This document shows positions 1 through 25,555 of a stretch of DNA of 25,555 bases, one piece after another. The translations under genes and the position numbers were made by a program. Each line of letters starts with the position of its first letter. The stretch's first letter is position 1. Under the pieces are notes generated by a model. The model did no database searches, was not told the DNA's origin, and saw only the letters and a program-made list of their open reading frames with translations. The stretch comes from a virus. The DNA is taken from the IMG/VR virus record IMGVR_UViG_3300011113_000347, positions 1-25,555 of that record. One strand, 5' to 3'.

Positions 1-540
1 ACGTGCAACTATGTTGATAAGATTATTGACCCGATTCAATCTCGTTGTCAAATCTTCAATATCGTTCCACCGTCAAAGAAAGATGTTGCCATTCACACGA
101 TTGGAATTCTTGAAGGCGAAGGAGTGGAGTTCTCGAAGGAAGACGTTGCACAAATCATCAATCTCACTTACCCAGATATTCGTCGTGTTCTGAATACAAT
201 GCAACGTTGTATTCTCGACGGTAAACTTCAACTTGATAAGTCAACACTTGTTCAGAATAATTTCTATTCTACCATCGTTGATATTTTGAAGTCGGGTAAG
301 AACAAGAAAGAAAAGTTCACGGAGATTCGTCAGATTCTTGCTGACAACAATATCCGTGATTACAATCCTCTGTTCCGTTATCTTTACGATAATGTAGAAC
401 AATATGCCAACGGATTTGTATCCACAGTAATCGTCATCATCGCGGAATCACAATACAAAGACGCCATGGTAGTAGACCACGAAATTAATGCTATGTCTAT
501 GTTTATTCAACTAATTATGGAAATCGACCAAAGGAAATAA
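1..540 (+). CDS. gp44: Sliding-clamp loader large subunit, C-terminal part (T4 gp44-like, 5' end outside window)
   Basis: The reading frame is open from base 1 and ends at the TAA closing at 540, giving about 179 residues with no start in the window. The first residues read TCNYVDKIIDPIQSRCQ, which is the sensor-1 and Ser-Arg-Cys (SRC) region of RFC-type AAA+ clamp-loader ATPases. The rest is the lid and the helical collar domain. In T4, gp44 with gp62 loads the gp45 clamp at primer-template junctions using ATP. The gp62-like gene lies 250 bases downstream, which supports the call. The Walker A and B motifs must lie upstream of the window. A GTG at 124 is an internal codon, not the start. The family call is firm; the exact phage lineage is not determined. 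Confidence 0.88.
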   Translation, partial: TCNYVDKIIDPIQSRCQIFNIVPPSKKDVAIHTIGILEGEGVEFSKEDVAQIINLTYPDIRRVLNTMQRCILDGKLQLDKSTLVQNNFYSTIVDILKSGKNKKEKFTEIRQILADNNIRDYNPLFRYLYDNVEQYANGFVSTVIVIIAESQYKDAMVVDHEINAMSMFIQLIMEIDQRK

Positions 541-9021: not shown

Positions 9022-9858
9022 ATGAACAACATGAATAAAACGTATATCATTGCAGAGATTGGTATTAATCACAATGGTGATATGAATATCGCAAAAAAGT
9101 TAATAGATATTGCCGCTGTTGCGGGTTGTGATGCTGTCAAATTCCAGAAAAGAAATCCAGATGTGTGTGTCCCAGAACATCAAAAGAATGTTATGAGAGA
9201 TACACCGTGGGGACAAATGACGTATCTTGAATACAAGCATATGGTAGAATTTGGCAAAGAACAATACGATGAAATAGATGCCTATTGTAAAGAAAAAGAA
9301 ATTGCTTGGTCTGCATCCCCTTGGGATTTGGATTCACTTGATTTTCTAAATGGATATGATATACCGTTTATTAAGATACCATCTGCAATGTTAACTAACG
9401 ATGAGTTATTAAAAGAATCAGTAAAGACTGGTAAGAAGATTATTCTTTCGGTTGGAATGTCAACGGAAGAAGAAATAAATCATGCCGTCGGTATATTGAA
9501 AGGCGCAAAAGAATTTGCTTTACTTCATTGCAATTCCACATATCCTGCACCAATCGAAGAACTTAACTTGTCTGCTATAAAAACATTAAAACAAAAGTAC
9601 AAGTGTGAGGTTGGTTATTCTGGACATGAATTTAGATTAGGGACATCTGTTGCTTCTATCTATCTTGGTGCATCAATAATCGAACGTCATATTACTCTTG
9701 ATCGGACAATGTGGGGAACTGACCATATGTCATCAGTAGAACCACAAGGTCTAATTAAGTTAGTTAAAGGTATACGTGAATTGGAACAAGCTTATGGTGA
9801 TGGGGTGATTCGTATAACAGATTCACAGGTTCCAGTAAGAAATAAGCTAAGAGGTTAA
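9022..9858 (+). CDS. neuB: NeuB-family nonulosonic acid synthase, without SAF domain
   Basis: 278 residues. The NeuB barrel is clear: IAEIGINHNGDMNIAKKLID, then AGCDAVKFQKRNPDV, then SASPWDLDSLDFL, LLHCNSTYPAP, VGYSGHE, and IIERHITLDRTMWGTDH near the C-terminus. These enzymes condense phosphoenolpyruvate with an N-acylated hexose (ManNAc or a 2,4-diamino-6-deoxy hexose) to a nine-carbon nonulosonic acid. The protein ends at VRNKLRG, right after the barrel, so the C-terminal SAF (antifreeze-like) domain of full-length (about 340-residue) enzymes is absent. That domain caps the partner's active site in characterised NeuB dimers, so activity may depend on a partner. A second NeuB-family gene at 11808 does have a SAF domain. 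It opens the cassette and lies four bases before the dehydratase gene. Confidence 0.88.
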   Translation: MNNMNKTYIIAEIGINHNGDMNIAKKLIDIAAVAGCDAVKFQKRNPDVCVPEHQKNVMRDTPWGQMTYLEYKHMVEFGKEQYDEIDAYCKEKEIAWSASPWDLDSLDFLNGYDIPFIKIPSAMLTNDELLKESVKTGKKIILSVGMSTEEEINHAVGILKGAKEFALLHCNSTYPAPIEELNLSAIKTLKQKYKCEVGYSGHEFRLGTSVASIYLGASIIERHITLDRTMWGTDHMSSVEPQGLIKLVKGIRELEQAYGDGVIRITDSQVPVRNKLRG

Positions 9859-9861
9859 TAC

Positions 9862-10851
9862 ATGGAAAACTTTTTTCAAAACAAAACAATCCTTATTACT
9901 GGCGGAACTGGTTCTCTTGGAAAAGAATTAGTAAAGAGATTGAAGAAGTACCAGTGTAATATCATAGTTTATTCAAGAGACGAGGGCAAGCAAGCTCTTT
10001 CTTTTAGTGGTGATTCAAGAGTATTCACAATCATCGGAGACATTCGAGATTATGATAAACTTCTTGTTTCGTTTAAGAAACATAAACCAGATTATGTAAT
10101 TCACACAGCGGCTCTAAAACGAATCGATGATATGGAATTCCACCCAGATGAATGTGTCAAGACAAATATATTGGGTTCTGAAAATGTTGCCCGTGCTGCA
10201 TTGGAAAGTGGTGTTAAGAAATGTATTCTGATCTCAACTGATAAAGCTTGTCAACCAGTAAATGTATATGGGTCAAGTAAGTTTATTGCGGAAAGAATAT
10301 TCACCAACTACGATTATAATTCGTCCGAAACAATATTCTCTTCTGTTAGATATGGAAATGTAATTGCAAGTAGAGGTTCTTTCATTCCACTCTGGATGGA
10401 AATGATTAATGATAACAAAAGAATACGAGTGACAGATACTGAAATGACTCGATTTTTATTTACACTCGATGATGCAGTCGATACTGTTTTAAATGCACTT
10501 TATCATTCAGTCGGTGGCGAAGTATTTGTTCCGAAGATAAATTCATATACTATATTGGATGTTGTCAATGCCCTTTCAAAGATTACAAACAAAGAAGTAC
10601 AATATGATGTAGTTGGTATTAGACCTGGTGAAAAACTTCATGAAGATATGTTAGCTATTACAGAATTGCCGTTTACTTATAAAGTGCCAGATATAAATCT
10701 TTTACAGATTCGACCTCAATATACAAACAAGACACACCAAACTTGGAATAAGTACGATGGTAGAGAATTTAATTCCTCATTGTATCTGACCAATGATGTT
10801 GAATCTTTGGTTCAACTTATCACCAGAGGCATTTTAGATGAAACTGTTTAA
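9862..10851 (+). CDS. UDP-sugar 4,6-dehydratase (FlaA1/PseB/CapD-like SDR)
   Basis: 329 residues. An extended short-chain dehydrogenase fold with the NAD(P) motif ITGGTGSLG at residues 12-20, IGDIRDYD near 54, then HTAALKRIDDME near 85 and ISTDKACQPVNVYGSSK ending in Tyr136-x3-Lys140. The TDKA and LKRI segments are typical of UDP-GlcNAc 4,6-dehydratases (inverting 5-epimerase type PseB/FlaA1, or capsule CapD-like), which make UDP-4-keto-6-deoxy sugars. The family's motif often has Met at the Tyr position in PseB, so the Tyr here leans slightly to the CapD side. PGEKLHEDML near residue 255 is also characteristic. The following aminotransferase overlaps it by 14 bases, the same gene order as pseB-pseC. 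Confidence 0.87.
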   Translation: MENFFQNKTILITGGTGSLGKELVKRLKKYQCNIIVYSRDEGKQALSFSGDSRVFTIIGDIRDYDKLLVSFKKHKPDYVIHTAALKRIDDMEFHPDECVKTNILGSENVARAALESGVKKCILISTDKACQPVNVYGSSKFIAERIFTNYDYNSSETIFSSVRYGNVIASRGSFIPLWMEMINDNKRIRVTDTEMTRFLFTLDDAVDTVLNALYHSVGGEVFVPKINSYTILDVVNALSKITNKEVQYDVVGIRPGEKLHEDMLAITELPFTYKVPDINLLQIRPQYTNKTHQTWNKYDGREFNSSLYLTNDVESLVQLITRGILDETV

Positions 10852-11845
10852 CACAGAAATCTTAAAAGAAGACGCGGAATTTGTTTCAGAAGTTCTTCAA
10901 AACGGTAATATCGGTTACGGACCACTCGTTGAAGAATTTCAAAACAAGTTCGTACCTTTCAGTAAAAAGAAGTATAATGTGGCAACAAATTCTGCGTCTG
11001 CCTCTGCATTTATGATATTTGCATATCTAAAAGAAAAGTATGGTACTTGCGATGTTTACACAACATCAATCGGTTTTATATCGCCAGCTTGGGCGGCACG
11101 TCATCTTGGACACAATGTTATTTTTGTAGATGTTGATGATAATTTGTTGTTTGATGTAAATCATTATCGTCAAATAAGAAAAGATAATGGTAGGAAAATA
11201 ATCTTAATGCCAATTTTATATGGTGGAGTCTCGGATATACATGGGTTTGATTCTATTAAAGAAGATGGATTTGACGAAATAATCCTTGTGGATTCTGCTC
11301 ACTGTGTAACTCCAACTATAAATTCCGATTTTATTTTCTTTTCATTCCATCCATTCAAACCGATTGCAGCATCTGATGGTGGTATGATTTCAACAGACGA
11401 TGAAGAATCTTATCACTACTTCAACTTGTATAGAAACTTTGGTAGAAAACAAATAGAAAATACCTACGATATAATTTCTGACGGATTCAAGTTTTACATG
11501 AATAATTTAAATGCCGCAATTGCACTGACACAATTAAACAGGTATGGGGAAAAATTAAAAGTACGGAAAGAATGTAATGAGTTAGTTAAAGGATTAAATC
11601 TAAATGGCAGATTGCTTCCACACGATTTACATTCGTCATACTACTTTGCAACGTTAATATGTGATACGAACTCCGTTGAACAATTGTACACAGAGTTTCC
11701 AACTTCAAAACATTATCCAATGATACATAAAACTTCATTGTTTAATGATAATTGTATTTTACCGAACACAGAACATTTACATAAACTAATTTTGAATTTA
11801 CCATTATATGAAAAAGACATTTATCATAGCAGAAGCCGGAGCTAA
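10838..11845 (+). CDS. DegT/DnrJ/EryC1 sugar aminotransferase (PseC-like)
   Basis: 335 residues. PLP-dependent sugar aminotransferase of the DegT family: NGNIGYGPLVEEFQNKF at the N-terminus, ATNSASASAFMI for phosphate binding, IILVDSAHCV around residue 148 with the PLP-ring Asp, and SFHPFKPIAASDGGMIST in which Lys174 is the expected Schiff-base lysine. It would transfer an amino group from glutamate to the 4-keto group made by the preceding dehydratase. It is a little shorter than typical members (about 370-390 residues), with a reduced C-terminal domain that ends in the IHKTSLF and LNLPLYEKD segments. The 5' end overlaps the dehydratase by 14 bases and the 3' end overlaps the second NeuB gene by 38 bases. 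Confidence 0.87.
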   Translation: MKLFNTEILKEDAEFVSEVLQNGNIGYGPLVEEFQNKFVPFSKKKYNVATNSASASAFMIFAYLKEKYGTCDVYTTSIGFISPAWAARHLGHNVIFVDVDDNLLFDVNHYRQIRKDNGRKIILMPILYGGVSDIHGFDSIKEDGFDEIILVDSAHCVTPTINSDFIFFSFHPFKPIAASDGGMISTDDEESYHYFNLYRNFGRKQIENTYDIISDGFKFYMNNLNAAIALTQLNRYGEKLKVRKECNELVKGLNLNGRLLPHDLHSSYYFATLICDTNSVEQLYTEFPTSKHYPMIHKTSLFNDNCILPNTEHLHKLILNLPLYEKDIYHSRSRS

Positions 11846-12788
11846 TCACAACCGTAGTTTTGACCAAGCTATTTCACTTATAGATGTGGCAAAAGAATCG
11901 GGTGCCGATGCCGTAAAGTTCCAAACATATTCTTCAGAAACACTTTACAGTAAAAATACACCAGATTTTGCAAATTATACGAACTTACCAAAACTGATAA
12001 AAGATATAGAACTTCCAAGAGAATGGCAACCAGATTTAAAAAAATACTGTGATGAGAACAATATTGAATTTATGTCCACTCCATTTGATGAAAAGGCAGT
12101 TGATGAACTTGTTAGTATTGGTGTGAAGAGATTGAAAATTGCTGGTTTTGAATCAACAGATCCCAGATTTGTAAATATGGTTTGTTCTGCAAAACTTCCA
12201 ATAATTGTTTCAATAGGAATTGGGGCGAACATTAAATTGATTGATAGTATTTTAGATATTGCAAATAAACATGGAGTAGATGATGTAACATTTTTACATT
12301 GTAATAATGCATATCCAACTCCACCTTCTGATGTGAATATGAATACAATTCAAGAGATGTCAATAGATAAACGATATAAGACTGGATTTTCAGACCATAC
12401 TATTTCTCCATTCACATCTGCACTAGCTGTTGCTGCGGGAGCAACAGTTATAGAAAAGCATTTTACATTAAGTAAATTTTTGAAAGGACCAGATCACCCA
12501 TTTGCAGTCGAACCTCATGAATTAAAAATTATGATTGAACACATTAGGTACACCGAAAAATGCATGGGAACAAAAGAATCTAATTTTACAGAATCAGAAA
12601 ATGATTTTAAAAAGGCCATGCGGTCTGTTGTGGTATCTAATCCAATAAAAGCAGGTGAAGAATTTTCCACCTATAATATCACAACAAAGAGACCGTTCTT
12701 GGAAGGAAATATTCCAGCAAATAAGTTTTATGATGTAATTGGAAAAATATCGGACAGAGATTATCAGGAGGATGATTTTGTCTTATGA
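11808..12788 (+). CDS. neuB: NeuB/PseI/LegI-family nonulosonic acid synthase with SAF domain
   Basis: 326 residues. Barrel motifs IIAEAGANHNRSFDQAISLI, SGADAVKFQTYSSETL, FMSTPFDEKAVDEL, FLHCNNAYPTPP, TGFSDHT and VIEKHFTLSKFLKGPDHPFA are all present. A C-terminal SAF-like part follows from about residue 268, including RSVVVSNPIKAGEEF and the ending SDRDYQEDDFVL. It condenses phosphoenolpyruvate with a hexose precursor. The FQTYSSETL and LPREWQPDLKKYC segments are closer to the PseI/LegI/SpsE style than to the first NeuB copy (FQKRNPDV). The two copies are therefore not a recent duplication. Which nonulosonate is made cannot be read from sequence. The start lies inside the aminotransferase gene and the end shares four bases with the next gene. 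Confidence 0.9.
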   Translation: MKKTFIIAEAGANHNRSFDQAISLIDVAKESGADAVKFQTYSSETLYSKNTPDFANYTNLPKLIKDIELPREWQPDLKKYCDENNIEFMSTPFDEKAVDELVSIGVKRLKIAGFESTDPRFVNMVCSAKLPIIVSIGIGANIKLIDSILDIANKHGVDDVTFLHCNNAYPTPPSDVNMNTIQEMSIDKRYKTGFSDHTISPFTSALAVAAGATVIEKHFTLSKFLKGPDHPFAVEPHELKIMIEHIRYTEKCMGTKESNFTESENDFKKAMRSVVVSNPIKAGEEFSTYNITTKRPFLEGNIPANKFYDVIGKISDRDYQEDDFVL

Positions 12789-13444
12789 TTGTTTTGATTT
12801 CTAAAAACAATGAATGGTCTCGCGAAGCATCAAATTTAGTTTCGAGAAAATTAGATGATGTTATATTTCTCAATAAATTTAGTATAGATGATTTAAGAAG
12901 AATACAACCAGATTGGATATTCTTTTTTCATTGGTCGGAAATAGTCCCAGAATCTATATTCAATGAATTTAGATGTGTTGTGATTCATACTGGAAATTTA
13001 CCGGATGATCGTGGTGGTAGTCCAATACAAAATCAAATATTAAAAGGGACTGTATCTACACGAGTTAATTTAATAGAGATGAAATCGGAAGTGGATTCTG
13101 GTGGAATTTATACAAATAAACAAATAACATTACAAGGTAGTTTGAGAGATATTTGGTTTACGATTGCTGGGGTTGCATCCGACTTAATAATTGAGTGCGT
13201 ACAAAAAAAATTATCACCAATACCACAATCGGGAAATTCTAACTCATATAAAAGACGAAAAAATAATGAATTAATTTTTGAAGATTCAAAAGATATTTCG
13301 TATATTTACGATCAAATAAGAATGTTAGATGCGGAAGATTACCCAAATCCATATATACAAATCGGAAGATATGTTTTAGAGTTTAGTAGGGCAAAAATAA
13401 TTAACGGAGAAATTATATCGGATGTTAAAATCATCAAAAAATAA
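12785..13444 (+). CDS. Formyltransferase-family protein (variant active site)
   Basis: 219 residues. The core resembles the methionyl-tRNA / sugar N-formyltransferase fold: VVIHTGNLPDDRGGSPIQN near residues 65-83 and EVDSGGIYTNKQITL near 102-116. The catalytic His68 and Asp104 are there, but the Asn of the usual Asn-x-His motif is replaced by Val66. I recall a subfamily with an RGGSPxQN signature and no Asn, often next to nonulosonate genes, so this is probably a feature of that group and not decay. The family transfers formyl from 10-formyltetrahydrofolate to an amino sugar. AGGAGG at 12766-12771 lies 13 bases before the ATG. The 3' end overlaps the deacetylase gene by 23 bases. Confidence 0.7.
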   Translation: MIVLISKNNEWSREASNLVSRKLDDVIFLNKFSIDDLRRIQPDWIFFFHWSEIVPESIFNEFRCVVIHTGNLPDDRGGSPIQNQILKGTVSTRVNLIEMKSEVDSGGIYTNKQITLQGSLRDIWFTIAGVASDLIIECVQKKLSPIPQSGNSNSYKRRKNNELIFEDSKDISYIYDQIRMLDAEDYPNPYIQIGRYVLEFSRAKIINGEIISDVKIIKK

Positions 13445-14084
13445 AATACTGGTATTAGCGGCTCATCCCGATGATGAAACTTTAGGATGTGGGGCAACTA
13501 TATCGAAATTATCGCGTGAAGGTAATGATATACATTTAATTACTTTTACGGATGGCGTCGGCAGTCGATTAGATGGGAGTCCAAATAGAAATTCTAAATT
13601 AGAAAAAGTTTCCGAAATACTAGGTATAAAAAAAATTAATTATGGAAACTTTCCAGATAATAAAATGGATTCTGTCTCTGTTTTAGATATTGCTAAATTT
13701 ATAGAATCGAATGTAGATTATGAACCGGATGTAATTTTTACTCACTTCATTGGTGATTTGAATATTGATCACGTTATCGTTACAAAGGCGGCATTAATTG
13801 CATTTAGACCACAATATGGTAATAAGATAAAAATTTACTCTTACTATGTGCCGTCTTCTACTGATTATAATCCAACTATAATTTATGACGGAAATACTTA
13901 CGTTGATATTTCACAGAGAGATGTAGATAACAAAATTGCTGCCCTAAAAATATACGATGAGGAAATGAGAACATATCCACATTCTAGAAGTTATGAGAAT
14001 ATAGAAAATCTTATGAAAGTATGGGGCTCTGAAGTTGGTGTAGTCTACTCTGAAAAATTCAAAATGATAAGGGAAATTATTTAA
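13422..14084 (+). CDS. PIG-L/LmbE family de-N-acetylase
   Basis: 220 residues. The metal motif AHPDDE is at residues 14-19 and the second motif, DLNIDH, at residues 112-117. Asp17 would be the base and His15, Asp18 and His117 would bind zinc, by comparison with MshB and PIG-L. These enzymes remove the acetyl group from N-acetyl sugars (GlcNAc-PI, GlcNAc-Ins, chitobiose, teicoplanin). No membrane segment is seen. It sits between two formyltransferase-family genes, which suggests a deacetylate-then-formylate step on an N-acetylated sugar; this is inference. A 24-base gap with an ATTTAT-type motif follows it. Confidence 0.87.
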   Translation: MLKSSKNKILVLAAHPDDETLGCGATISKLSREGNDIHLITFTDGVGSRLDGSPNRNSKLEKVSEILGIKKINYGNFPDNKMDSVSVLDIAKFIESNVDYEPDVIFTHFIGDLNIDHVIVTKAALIAFRPQYGNKIKIYSYYVPSSTDYNPTIIYDGNTYVDISQRDVDNKIAALKIYDEEMRTYPHSRSYENIENLMKVWGSEVGVVYSEKFKMIREII

Positions 14085-14086
14085 AT

Positions 14087-14094
14087 GTATTTAT
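14087..14094. promoter_or_regulatory. GTATTTAT motif (function unknown)
   Basis: A near copy of the ATATTTAT octamer found in four other gaps. It lies 15 bases before the ATG at 14109. No convincing -35 box is seen, because the upstream sequence is the end of the deacetylase gene. Confidence 0.2.
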
Positions 14095-14108
14095 TATACG
14101 GGGTTTAA

Positions 14109-14858
14109 ATGCGAATACTTTTTTTGGGTTATGATAAAACAAAAACACGACTGATTGAATTTTTAGAATCAAAAGGTCATGATGTATCGAACACATCGGA
14201 AAAAATTACTCCAACTGATGTCATGGGATTTGATTGGGTGGTGAGTTTCGGTTATTGTCATATAGTGTCAAAAGAAGTTATAGATACAACAAATGATAGA
14301 ATAATAAATTTACATATATCATATTTACCATACAATCGTGGAAAGCATCCATTATTCTGGGCTTTCCATGATAATACACCCGTCGGTGTGACAATACATA
14401 AGATAGATGAAGGATTAGATACGGGAGACATATATGTACAAAAGATGGTTGACATAGATCCTTTTACGGAAACTTTTAAAAGCGGTTATGATAAAGTAAT
14501 ACATGAGATAGAAAATCTATTCATGTCATATTGTGATGAAATACTTTCATCTAGTTTAGTACCATTCAAACAAATCGGAAACGGTACATATCATAGAGCT
14601 GCGGATTTACCTTTAATAAAATCATGGGACACTAACATATCGAGGTTTTTTGAAATGAATAAAAGAAGTGATTACGAAATTATCGATGATATCGAACGTA
14701 TAAGAGCTCGCAATAATGTAAATTGGATGGATGCCGTTAGACTTGCATTTGAAATTGCACCCGATAGAGCTAGAACAATATTCAAGGATATAAAAGAATG
14801 TGATGCTCGTATCAATGAATTGTTAAACGAACTTGCTGATAACGATGAAAAGAATTGA
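14109..14858 (+). CDS. Sugar N-formyltransferase-like protein
   Basis: 249 residues. The formyltransferase core is complete: MRILFLGYDKTK at the N-terminus, INLHISYLPYNRGKHPLFW near residues 66-84 with Asn67 and His69, and DEGLDTGDIYVQKMV near 100-114 with Asp104. These are the Asn-His-Asp residues of 10-formyltetrahydrofolate-dependent enzymes. The C-terminal part (residues 165-249) differs from methionyl-tRNA formyltransferase and is helical and acidic, so a sugar substrate is more likely than tRNA. The context, next to a de-N-acetylase and nonulosonate genes, supports an N-formylated sugar product. It overlaps the cytidylyltransferase gene by 14 bases. Confidence 0.8.
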   Translation: MRILFLGYDKTKTRLIEFLESKGHDVSNTSEKITPTDVMGFDWVVSFGYCHIVSKEVIDTTNDRIINLHISYLPYNRGKHPLFWAFHDNTPVGVTIHKIDEGLDTGDIYVQKMVDIDPFTETFKSGYDKVIHEIENLFMSYCDEILSSSLVPFKQIGNGTYHRAADLPLIKSWDTNISRFFEMNKRSDYEIIDDIERIRARNNVNWMDAVRLAFEIAPDRARTIFKDIKECDARINELLNELADNDEKN

Positions 14859-15525
14859 AGACATTTGTATATTAGTACAGGCTCGACTTGGCTCACAAAG
14901 AGTGCCTGGAAAAATGATAAGACCATTTGCAGGAACAACATTAGTTGATGTCCTTTTTGAGAAATTAAATAAATCAACTGTTATTCCAAAGTCAAATATT
15001 TATTTTTCAGCGTATGAAGATGAGTTAAAACAAATTGCATCTAATCACAGTATAAATATTTTCCACCGTTCAGAGAAGTCTGCAAAATCAGAGGGACAAC
15101 CGATGACCGAAATATATGAGTGGTGGGATAAACTACCATTCAAGTATGTTATTTTAGTTAGCGCGTGTAATCCTTTGTTGAAGATAGAGACAATAGACAA
15201 TTTTATAAAAAAATTTATTGAGTCAGATAAAGAAGGTGGTTTTGCAGTCTTTGAAAAGAAAACATATTATTGGAATTCTGATGGAATTCCAATTACAGAT
15301 TGGAAGGGTTCTACAATAATGAATACAAAATTTGTTGACCCAATTTATGAAGCCGCTCATTGTTTGTATGCAAGTCGTTTAGATATAATTGGCGATGGAC
15401 ATTGGATGGATAAAAACTATCCACCACAGCCGGAACTATTTGTAATGGAAGAACTTGATGCGTTTGATATAGATTATGAATGGCAGTTTAATGTTGCACA
15501 ATCTTTGTATGAAAAGTTATGTTAA
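14845..15525 (+). CDS. SpsF-type cytidylyltransferase (CMP-sugar synthetase-like)
   Basis: 226 residues from the ATG at 14845; a TTG at 14833 is an alternative start. The N-terminal motif ILVQARLGSQRVPGKM at residues 9-24 is the nucleotide-binding signature of the SpsF/NeuA cytidylyltransferase group, followed by a LVSACNPLL segment near residue 108 in the usual LQ.TSPL-type position. The family activates nonulosonic or Kdo-type acids as CMP sugars; SpsF-type members are less well characterised than NeuA. As the only nucleotidyltransferase here it is the natural activator for the NeuB product. It overlaps both neighbours slightly. Confidence 0.8.
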   Translation: MKRIEDICILVQARLGSQRVPGKMIRPFAGTTLVDVLFEKLNKSTVIPKSNIYFSAYEDELKQIASNHSINIFHRSEKSAKSEGQPMTEIYEWWDKLPFKYVILVSACNPLLKIETIDNFIKKFIESDKEGGFAVFEKKTYYWNSDGIPITDWKGSTIMNTKFVDPIYEAAHCLYASRLDIIGDGHWMDKNYPPQPELFVMEELDAFDIDYEWQFNVAQSLYEKLC

Positions 15526-22855: not shown

Positions 22856-23509
22856 ATGATACAACCAGTAGTTCTGTATAGTTCCAATCACAAAATACTA
22901 CGAACAAAAACTAAACATTCGGATGTAGAAAAAGAAAAAGAAAACCTTGAAAAGTTGATTGGAGATATGAAAGATACACTTCAATCAATCGGTGGTCTTG
23001 GTCTTGCCGCAAATCAACTCGGTAGAGATGAATCAGTTTGTCTTGTTCAATTTGGTGAACAATTAATAACGATGATAAATCCTGTAATAACAGGACGAGA
23101 AGGTGAAACAAAGATTTCAATTGAAGGTTGTCTTTCTATCCCCGATGTTTCTGCTAAGGTGCAAAGAGATGAAATTGTCTCTGTAAAATTCACCAATCCC
23201 GATAACGGGTGGCAAGAAGAAGAAATCAGAGTAGAGTTTCCAAACTCTGTTGTTGTTCAGCACGAAGTTGATCACCTTAACGGAAAACTTATGACTGATA
23301 ATTTATCACCGATGGAAAAAAATCTTATTGCTACAAAGTTAAAGAGAGTTTCTCGTGGTAATGCAGAGATAAATTACGTCGGTATGATTTGGAGAGATAC
23401 ACAAAAATCTTGGTCTTTGGTTGGACCATACAATAAATTAATGCAGTTTTATTCTCAATTTCAAAAAGAAGAAGAAAATTCTTCCGAAGAGGTGAATAAA
23501 AAAGATTAA
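22856..23509 (+). CDS. def: Peptide deformylase
   Basis: 217 residues. All three motifs are present: GLGLAANQLG (usual form GxGLAAPQ; here Asn replaces Pro), EGCLSIP with metal ligand Cys92, and QHEVDHLNGKL with ligands His136 and His140 and catalytic Glu137. The enzyme removes the formyl group from the N-terminal Met of new proteins. The C-terminal 60 residues, from about MEKNLIATKLKRVS, are longer than in most phage deformylases and end in a Lys/Glu-rich helix with a KSWSLVGPY segment. Phage-encoded deformylases are known from marine phages. The gene shares its transcript with the preceding gene, four bases upstream. Confidence 0.92.
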   Translation: MIQPVVLYSSNHKILRTKTKHSDVEKEKENLEKLIGDMKDTLQSIGGLGLAANQLGRDESVCLVQFGEQLITMINPVITGREGETKISIEGCLSIPDVSAKVQRDEIVSVKFTNPDNGWQEEEIRVEFPNSVVVQHEVDHLNGKLMTDNLSPMEKNLIATKLKRVSRGNAEINYVGMIWRDTQKSWSLVGPYNKLMQFYSQFQKEEENSSEEVNKKD

Positions 23510-23514
23510 GAAAC

Positions 23515-23522
23515 ATATTTAT
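23515..23522. promoter_or_regulatory. ATATTTAT motif in the gap before the secreted protein
   Basis: It sits six bases after the deformylase stop and 62 bases before the ATG at 23585. TAGGTTTC at 23529-23536 is close to the Bacteroidota TAnnTTTG box, but no TTG lies at the right distance upstream. The 75-base gap otherwise has a T-rich stretch and GAGGAAA as the ribosome binding site of the next gene. Confidence 0.3.
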
Positions 23523-23584
23523 CTCTGATAGGTTTCGGAAAGTTTTGTTTGTTTTTTTACTACAACTTTTCGAGGAAATTAGAG

Positions 23585-25492
23585 ATGAAAAAATTTATAC
23601 TTGCCCTTGGCATACTTTTCAGTACACTTACAGGGGCAGTAGCCCAAAATGGTTTAGGAGAGGTGTTACCGGCACCAGATGCTTCTAAACCATACGTGCT
23701 TGTAGACACGTCGTTTATCGTAGGTTCTTATCTTCAAGGTTCAACAACCTTGTATCTTCACTACAACTACACAGGTTCAGAAAAAGTAAAAGCTATTCAG
23801 ACCCGTATCTTCTTTGATACCGCAGCTTTTTCAAACGTAGTTGCAACTGCCGGTCCAACAATAACAAACGAATCTGTTTATTTCCGTTCAAACAGAGTCG
23901 CTAATTATCTTACCCTCACCGTATCTTACACAGGAAGCAACATAGGTTGGTCTTTCCCTGCCGGTGCTTGGGTAAAGTTAGTGTTTACACATGGCCCACG
24001 TTTCTATGATGTAGACCCCGATTCACTTAAACTTATCGGTACACCATCATACTCAAACAAGGCAACAATCAATAGTGGTACAGACGTAACATTAGGTATG
24101 GTAAACTATGGTGGATATTTTGTTCGTCCTCCGTTTACGATGCCTCTTTATGTTTTCAACCAAGACCAAACTCCAATGGGTAAGGTAAAGGTTCAGTTCT
24201 TCCAACGTAAGAAAGTTGCAACAAACTGGGACTCACTTGCCATCTACGAAACAGATTCAGCAACAGGTAAAGTTACACTCCGTACAAACGTTGATACATC
24301 TATCTCTTATGTAAAGATTCGTATCAATGGTGATACCGCAAAAGCTGGTGATGCTGTAAACGTAACAGATGCATACAAAATCAATGATGTTGTTCTTGAA
24401 ACAGACACACTCTCAAAGTTCCAATACTTTGCAGCTGACATCAACAAAAACAATGTCTATACAATCTCCGATGCCTTCCTTGTGTTCAATCGTATCGCAC
24501 AGGGTGCACAACGTTGGAATGACTTCCTTCCGGGAACAAAGGACGTAATGTTCTTCCGTGTTGGACAGAAACAATCTATATTTGCCGCTCCTGGTACAAA
24601 CTTCACATCTACAATCACACCAACACATGACCTCGTTGACACACTCAACGGTGAGGATAGTGTTTCTTATTGGGGTGTTCTTCTCGGTGATGCAAACGGA
24701 ACGGGTCTTACAAATATCGGCATGGTCATGGGACGTAATACAGATGACCCAACTTCATCGGAATATATTCGCGACTCTCGTGTTTCTTATAAGAATGCAA
24801 AAGAAACAGTATCATTTGAACTTCCACGTTTAACAATCTCAAACGAATCAGAAGTAACAGTTCCAGTTACACTTGTAACAAATGGCGTCGATATTGGTTC
24901 TCTTCAATTCGGTGTGGTATACGATCCAAATCTTCTTGAATTCAAGAACATCGATGTATCAGAACAAGTAAAGTCATGGACATCTTACATTCTTGTAAAG
25001 GGTGACCACGTTGAATGGGGTGGATATGAAACATCAAACAAACAAGATGTTATCCGTTCAAATGCAGAAGTTTTCAACCTTACATTCAAGGTAAAGAAAA
25101 CAGGTTGGACTGAATCACCTATCCGTGTTGTTACAAAGGCCGTTGGTAATTCAAAGGCAGAAGATGTAAACATCAATGAATCAAATTCTGATGGTAAGAT
25201 TGCTTACATGATGGCACCGATTGAATTCGACTTTGATAACCTGTTTGTTACATATCCTGTTCCTTTCAAGGAAAACCTCACAGTAGAAACAAAGCCACTT
25301 ATGGCCGGTGATCAATTCGGTGTTGAAGTTATCAACCAACTTGGTCAGCCAGTATTTGGTCAAACACAACAAGCTTATTCAGGTGGTACACAAAGAATGT
25401 ATATTGATATGTCATCCCAACCAAAGGGAGTTTATTTTGTAAGATATAAAAATGGAAATACAGTTTCGGTAAAACAAGTTGTTAAGAATTAA
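23585..25492 (+). CDS. Secreted protein with cohesin/dockerin-like domains and T9SS type A sorting domain
   Basis: 635 residues from the ATG at 23585, chosen for GAGGAAA upstream and the signal peptide MKKFILALGILFSTLTG, with likely cleavage after AVA. A beta-rich cohesin-like domain spans about residues 30-180. A Thr/Lys-rich beta domain follows, then a dockerin-like pair near 255-306, including INDVVL and ADINKNNVYTISDAFLVFNR, which has the Asp/Asn calcium-loop pattern. LLGDANGTG near 370 is another such loop. A clearer cohesin-like domain (ISNESEVTVPVTLV to FNLTFKVKK) covers about 408-538. The last 85-90 residues (YPVPFKENLTV, then INQLGQPVF, then PKGVYFVRYKNGN and VKQVVKN) match the Por/T9SS type A sorting domain (TIGR04183-like). 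Sec export, then outer-membrane secretion and anchoring by the host T9SS, is implied. Use as a structural protein is an alternative. Confidence 0.85.
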   Translation: MKKFILALGILFSTLTGAVAQNGLGEVLPAPDASKPYVLVDTSFIVGSYLQGSTTLYLHYNYTGSEKVKAIQTRIFFDTAAFSNVVATAGPTITNESVYFRSNRVANYLTLTVSYTGSNIGWSFPAGAWVKLVFTHGPRFYDVDPDSLKLIGTPSYSNKATINSGTDVTLGMVNYGGYFVRPPFTMPLYVFNQDQTPMGKVKVQFFQRKKVATNWDSLAIYETDSATGKVTLRTNVDTSISYVKIRINGDTAKAGDAVNVTDAYKINDVVLETDTLSKFQYFAADINKNNVYTISDAFLVFNRIAQGAQRWNDFLPGTKDVMFFRVGQKQSIFAAPGTNFTSTITPTHDLVDTLNGEDSVSYWGVLLGDANGTGLTNIGMVMGRNTDDPTSSEYIRDSRVSYKNAKETVSFELPRLTISNESEVTVPVTLVTNGVDIGSLQFGVVYDPNLLEFKNIDVSEQVKSWTSYILVKGDHVEWGGYETSNKQDVIRSNAEVFNLTFKVKKTGWTESPIRVVTKAVGNSKAEDVNINESNSDGKIAYMMAPIEFDFDNLFVTYPVPFKENLTVETKPLMAGDQFGVEVINQLGQPVFGQTQQAYSGGTQRMYIDMSSQPKGVYFVRYKNGNTVSVKQVVKN

Positions 25493-25504
25493 TAGGAGTT
25501 ACAT

Positions 25505-25555
25505 ATGGCGACGAAAAAGAAGAGTGTGGATTTAGAGGAATTGCAAGAATCTGTT
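25505..25555 (+). CDS. Start of a gene running past the window edge
   Basis: The ATG at 25505 has AGGAG at 25494-25498. Seventeen codons are visible, beginning MATKKKSVDLEELQES, and the frame is open to the last base. A Lys-rich start followed by an acidic helix tells nothing about function. It is 12 bases after the stop of the secreted protein, so it is probably on the same transcript. Confidence 0.6.
   Translation, partial: MATKKKSVDLEELQESV

Follow-up and report, generated by a model that had tools for sequence, protein, structure and literature searches.

The window, by which we mean the whole 25,555-base stretch of DNA analysed here, is a virus contig, the complete IMG/VR record IMGVR_UViG_3300011113_000347. 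Near its end lies the gene P0001, whose parts, together with the start of the gene that follows, are these:

23585..25492, + strand: P0001, 635 aa from ATG to stop; an exported protein with cohesin, dockerin-like and type IX secretion (T9SS) C-terminal sorting domain (CTD) parts
23585..23644, + strand: Sec signal peptide, residues 1-20 (AVA/Q), read by eye and by a family-wide rule-based scan
23675..24130, + strand: N-terminal domain of cohesin fold, residues 31-182; on the AlphaFold2 model, VIA-align gives Z about 13 to cohesins 3ul4_A and 1aoh_B
24131..24328, + strand: CarboxypepD_reg/CnaB-like Ig segment, residues 183-248; PF13620 in 6 of 24 homologues
24329..24502, + strand: dockerin-like segment, residues 249-306; PF00404 in homologues, 4uyp_B profile match, invariant loop residues
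24503..24784, + strand: post-dockerin domain, residues 307-400, common to the lectin protein g13; poorly modelled
24794..25201, + strand: type I cohesin domain, residues 404-539; PF00963, VIA-align Z 14 to CaCohA2
25241..25489, + strand: T9SS type A sorting domain, residues 553-635, ending VKQVVKN; TIGR04183, PF18962, 8glk_D/8glj_D profile match and structure
25505..25555, + strand: first bases of the following gene (MATKKKSVDLEELQESV), which encodes a single-TM protein at the position of g16; from sequence, cut by the contig end

A check of the reading frame places the ATG of P0001 at 23585 and the close of its stop codon at 25492; starting from the in-frame TTG at 23549 would lengthen the protein by 12 residues, but the signal peptide begins at the ATG. 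This signal peptide, MKKFILALGILFSTLTGAVA/QNG (MKKF...AVA/Q), was recognized by eye in agreement with the earlier note, and the simple rule by which signal peptides were called across the P family (P0001 and its homologues) and its gene neighbors found a type I signal peptide in 85 of the 87 distinct family members with an intact start. Over P0001 (window 23001-25500) the GC skew moves from about +0.15 to -0.02 and the GC content climbs to 0.38-0.39, unlike the remainder of the window's second half, a shift that may stem from Thr/Asn-rich coding or from a different origin. A promoter and terminator scan gave no informative site.

The C-terminal residues of P0001, which the earlier note had assigned to a type A sorting domain from motifs, score above the curated cut-offs of both profiles: TIGR04183 matches residues 557-635, the extreme C-end, at 1.3e-8 (34.7 bits against a cut-off of 23) and PF18962 matches residues 557-632 at 1.2e-9 (38.7 bits against 27), bearing the assignment out. 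The TIGR04183 match is far above chance, since only 1 of 14 control genomes crosses the cut-off. The domain is present in all 24 full-length homologues. In 16 long viral contigs, TIGR04183 gave a single clear match apiece (15 above the cut-off), always in an ORF of the P0001 type. A profile search of solved-structure sequences with P0001 retrieved the T9SS sorting domains 8glk_D (E 5e-5) and 8glj_D (1.3e-3), and residues 553-635 of the AlphaFold2 model, which adopt the seven-strand CTD fold, superimpose by VIA-align on 8glk_D, which is NucA, a substrate in the T9SS translocon (Z 10.4, rmsd 2.2, 75 of 75 residues), and on the PorU CTD (Z 12.0). The mean pLDDT of the model is 57.5, with values of 60-85 in the better domains and mostly 59-84 in the CTD; residues 249-393 are poorly modelled. 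The hallmarks PxP, G and GxY are kept in 99% of 69 non-redundant phage CTDs, a Lys/Arg-aliphatic C-end was found by pattern in 61 of them, and the modal C-end column is Lys in 74%. Because P0001 ends in VKQVVKN, its Lys falls one column before the modal place. In sorting domains the Lys near the C-end is almost invariant, functionally important and in contact with PorV (PMC10994853). From this full set of type A features in the sequence, we infer that P0001 would pass through a T9SS.

Elsewhere, T9SS sorting domains have been described only from Bacteroidota (PMC10202324), which could be taken to mean that the P0001 gene is bacterial and that the contig comes from the host or is chimeric. We regard this explanation as barely credible and reject it: the record is a virus record, the window carries phage replication genes, a homologue resides in an isolated phage, and the family is viral in its distribution. 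The clamp-loader genes reported previously are confirmed by PHROGs as phrog_168 (window 1-537, 2e-32) and phrog_225 (804-1238, 2.6e-8), and an exonuclease gene of a phage family is also present. Patterns derived from the alignment occur in 299 viral stretches and in only one contig among 84,980 species genomes. The exception (L165, RFPL01000028.1), a 16.5-kb contig binned as Sphingomonadaceae, itself carries the phage module described below and is, most simply, a probable misbinned phage. On this sequence distribution the P0001 family is phage-specific, and the contig is, as the earlier note had presumed, that of a phage and not a piece of bacterial chromosome.

The clear relative in culture is the Flavobacterium myophage vB_FspM_immuto (Immutovirus; MW353176.1; host Flavobacterium sp. 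LMO8), in which P0001 is represented by two adjacent genes. The product of gp14 has a signal peptide, the N-terminal parts and the dockerin-like unit, and that of gp15 has its own signal peptide, the cohesin and the sorting domain; jointly, they cover 95% of P0001 at 30% identity. The same C-terminal tail is thus present in immuto gp15, and the gene itself recurs in hundreds of related uncultured viruses. The genes gp13-gp19 of immuto constitute the same module as that headed by P0001 relatives elsewhere, but P is divided there into two ORFs, each with a signal peptide, and the public annotation lists only hypothetical, cohesin and lectin proteins. A further relative, the 636-residue A0A6J5M064 of an uncultured Caudovirales phage in BFVD, matches P0001 over its whole length (Foldseek E 2.6e-43) and bears the name 'Secretion system C-terminal sorting domain', which comes from automatic annotation only. 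The closest annotated relative of the window's backbone is Microcystis phage Mel-JY01 (PP395634.1), with 54% identity in the exonuclease, 53-70% in glycosyltransferases, the same nuclease-IMP dehydrogenase order and a related deformylase. Neither the sorting domain nor g17 was detected in Mel-JY01, and the empty g17 result shows little. Given that a cyanobacterial host is on record for Mel-JY01 and that immuto infects Flavobacterium, either the backbone has a wide host range or one of the hosts is misassigned.

Between the signal peptide and the sorting domain, P0001 contains two cohesin-fold domains and, between these, a dockerin-like segment, all of which the earlier reading of the protein had missed. 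The C-terminal cohesin is recognized by PF00963 at residues 420-539 (5.2e-12, 46.6 bits against a gathering score of 24.1). The N-terminal one is assigned from structure, because its hhalign comparison with the C-terminal cohesin was not significant and gave it no sequence-profile support. We call residues 249-306 dockerin-like only, since P0001 itself scores 12.2 bits with PF00404, under the gathering score of 22.9; the family is nevertheless matched in 11 of 24 homologues (best 2.1e-4), and the P0001 profile finds the PDB dockerin 4uyp_B at E 3e-3. The segment's second Ca-type loop, DINKNNVYTISD at residues 285-296, has D285, N287 and D296 invariant in 24 homologues, and its first loop is degenerate. 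The preceding Ig segment belongs to a 150-column unit that P0001 has in common with g13. At one locus (L004, 11598-13422) P is split at an interdomain linker, and either the second half gained a signal peptide of its own or the fused form lost it.

The module was defined with protein families derived from the immuto neighborhood, which were searched for in all fetched loci. In 76 of the 77 loci fetched by P alone, g16 and g17 lie downstream of P on the same strand, and in the sole exception the contig ends just past P. The usual order is P, g16, g17, g18, followed by g19 and g13, whose sequence varies; g13 lies upstream of P in the immuto group, and a further small TM gene is frequently inserted. 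The product of g16 is a protein of about 105 residues with a single TM; that of g17 is a CsgG-like protein of about 240 residues; that of g18 has a signal peptide, an N-domain, a Ser/Thr/Asn/Gly-rich linker and a conserved barrel-like C-part; and that of g19 is a small exported protein of about 150 residues. Pfam scans of g18 and g19 gave no credible family. By rule, signal peptides or lipoboxes were found in nearly all members of P, g14, g15, g17, g18 and g13 and in most of g19, with g16 as the exception. The TM protein encoded between g16 and g17 ends, in three loci (L264 9998-10630, L268 7354-7947 and L313 9944-10576), in a tail of the form EIDEDGDG...DFDGDG...CxHVWGDADGDGxEECLxCGKIK, which looks like Ca loops followed by a metal-binding Cys/His motif.

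The window stops inside the gene after P0001, so that the full module in its phage is deduced through synteny. An 86%-identical relative (L002) continues with a complete g16-like gene (11930-12397), of which the window has the first 51 bases, and then with a TM protein. A search with this g16-like gene returned L002 alone; one with the TM protein fetched 80 loci, 76 of which have g17, and the loci with a strong P among these (L251, L258, L307 and others) read P, g16, TM, g17, g18, g13, g19. Through L002 and L251/L258, the window's phage can be presumed, on gene order, to carry the full module.

The lectin protein g13 is adhesin-like, with an interchangeable carbohydrate-binding center that varies by phage: among 28 proteins, it was Lectin_C in 12, GEVED in 5, PA14 in 4 and LamG in 3. 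Identity is 0.17 in the middle, as against 0.29 and 0.385 at the ends. The C-terminal 150 residues of g13 are homologous to P residues 183-400 (hhalign probability 99.8, E 5.6e-30), and P and the lectin protein therefore have a common dockerin-containing unit; cohesin matches were seen in P alone. When covariation of the P cohesins with the g13 dockerin was analyzed, with g17 distance as a control, no domain stood out (partial r 0.02-0.05). The evidence for CsgG membership of g17 is suggestive but stays under the profile cut-off, and we therefore retain the term CsgG-like: the best whole-record match to PF03783 is 14.1 bits, short of the gathering score of 20.8; 3 of 23 members match, the best at E 8.5e-5; hhalign against phage CsgG was not significant; and among the Foldseek matches of the g17 model (pLDDT 64), GNA1162 and CsgG have probability 0.9 but E 0.2-0.5. 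Of 101 distinct g17 members, about half have a lipobox and most others a type I signal by rule. Separately, the 1.5-kb entry OR851715.1, listed as a Salmonella phage, has a CsgG gene and is apparently a bacterial contaminant among the phage records.

We posit, with a probability of about one in two, that P0001 is a phage surface scaffold in a cohesin-dockerin-lectin complex displayed on the infected cell via the host T9SS. During infection, P0001 would be exported by Sec, as its signal peptide suggests. A host T9SS, whose presence we assume, would then recognize the type A sorting domain and carry P0001 across the outer membrane, where PorU would be expected, from the type A features, to trim off the sorting domain. 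P0001 would present its two cohesin-fold modules outside the cell, and g13 could dock onto them through its dockerin-like unit, the docking being predicted from a homology that is itself evident; the TM protein, the CsgG-like protein, the barrel-like protein and the small exported protein would export or anchor the partners. That no sorting domain was seen in g13 counts against such a surface complex. The infected cell would thereby acquire a coat of lectins, whose likeliest use may be to mask or cross-link surface glycans; this could restrict superinfection, keep progeny from being lost to debris or hold neighboring cells. The purpose of the coat is the weakest step of the model. Extended from this protein to a class of viruses, the proposal would be that large Bacteroidota phages equip the infected cell with a cohesin-dockerin assembly resembling a cellulosome, with a T9SS-delivered scaffold, lectin heads swapped between phages and support from a phage outer-membrane protein; we offer this tentatively, at somewhat less than even odds.

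The surface scaffold has to be weighed against a purely structural role, in which the CTD-like domain is only a beta-sandwich throughout and P0001 stays in the periplasm or outer membrane, in an envelope complex of the phage that includes the CsgG-like protein, without involvement of the host T9SS. This account gains from the distant relatives of the module, where the CTD-like domain is a separate lipoprotein of about 120 residues placed directly before g16, in the position that P holds elsewhere. In L320 (9211-9561) it scores 24.1 bits with TIGR04183, 26.7 with PF18962 and E 5e-13 with a family-CTD HMM; in L328 (9217-9567) it scores 26.1 with PF18962 and 1e-13 with the HMM; weaker examples precede g16 in many loci (L252, L264, L313 and others). 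The CTD fold can therefore serve without being a cargo tag, and P0001 relatives, moreover, always adjoin the phage's own envelope-protein genes. The fused CTDs, however, mostly keep the C-terminal Lys motif, whereas the lipoproteins of L320 and L328 have Thr at this position, and of all P domains the CTD shows the lowest conservation (mean identity 0.33) yet retains its fold motifs, a combination reported for sorting domains (PMC10994853). We consider the structural role unlikely, if far from negligible. One possibility is that the CTD originated as an envelope component, or later turned into one, and that it acts as a genuine sorting signal in its fused form; the stand-alone lipoproteins could be such components or might even compete with the host T9SS.

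The main functional rival to the surface scaffold is lysis or egress, because a GH19 endolysin homologue lies near the module and a lytic role has been proposed for CsgG pores (PMC9004378). Here, a holin-like protein, an endolysin, inner-membrane TM proteins and outer-membrane proteins would act together to open the envelope, and P0001 would be an envelope-disrupting or scaffolding part. The homologue, of an endolysin with GH19 and PG-binding domains, lies close to the module in roughly half of the loci and, in L038 and L100, only tens of bases off on the same strand; a short TM protein, possibly a holin, is often nearby, and the lysis proposal concerns CsgG/CsgF of the phage Melnitz. It is hard, though, to see what lysis would gain from swappable lectins, cohesin and dockerin units and a sorting domain, and the immuto module adjoins replication and RNR genes, with no endolysin directly beside it, which together make this role quite improbable. 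Phage decoration proteins can contain lectin and Ig-like domains, and P0001 might by that token be a virion protein, a head or tail decoration with borrowed bacterial surface domains, as the earlier note had suggested among other roles. But the virions of tailed phages are put together in the cytoplasm, export signals (signal peptides or lipoboxes) occur on nearly all module proteins, and no PHROG structural family was matched; these signals make a place in the virion very unlikely.

A surface scaffold delivered by T9SS would bring together themes known separately. The supposition that a phage-encoded T9SS substrate would be unusual holds only in part: such cargo had been reported, as a unique occurrence, in Cryophage (PMC7468147), and among the phages studied here it is not rare, heading a module in many viral contigs. 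The Cryophage genes likewise end in type A sorting domains, but their products are an endoglucanase, a GH39 protein and a PA14 protein, each phage having three and the set differing between variants (PMC7468147), whereas here there is one clear match per genome, in a conserved cohesin/dockerin scaffold that heads a fixed module. Phage curli pores are known from pelagimyophages (PMC7029224), and the CsgF/CsgG operon of these phages and of Melnitz similarly places a phage outer-membrane secretion-type protein beside exported proteins without a known role (PMC7029224, PMC9004378). Pelagimyophage CsgG, however, is unmistakable (180 bits in HTVC008M) and accompanied by CsgF, whereas g17 is only CsgG-like, CsgF was not recognized in the module, and cohesin, lectin and T9SS parts are added. 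With the X-dockerin arrangement of cellulosomes, P0001 shares the cohesin fold and a dockerin-like Ca-loop motif followed by an accessory domain; here the system is viral, lectins take the place of enzymes, and the cohesin-dockerin contact is predicted.

Our literature search retrieved nothing relevant on cohesin or dockerin in phages, nor a conserved cohesin/dockerin/lectin module that joins the T9SS-cargo and phage-curli themes. Phages alter surface glycans and encode small exclusion proteins; the literature searched did not describe a conserved module of several exported proteins, with cohesins and lectins, that exploits the dedicated outer-membrane secretion route of the host. A cellulosome-like phage assembly, if real, would represent a way of remodelling the cell surface that had not been described for viruses, and the present assignment provides a functional lead for a family that is mostly 'hypothetical' in public annotation. 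Since the module is common in environmental viruses and present in the cultured immuto, phage T9SS cargo and cohesin-dockerin assembly are directly testable. Elsewhere in the window, positions 9022-15525 hold, amid glycosyltransferases, a run of genes that, judged by eye, we take to resemble a pathway for nonulosonic (sialic-acid-like) sugar synthesis, presumably with two NeuB-like synthases, a CapD-like epimerase, an aminotransferase, formyltransferases, a PIG-L-like deacetylase and a CMP-sugar synthetase.
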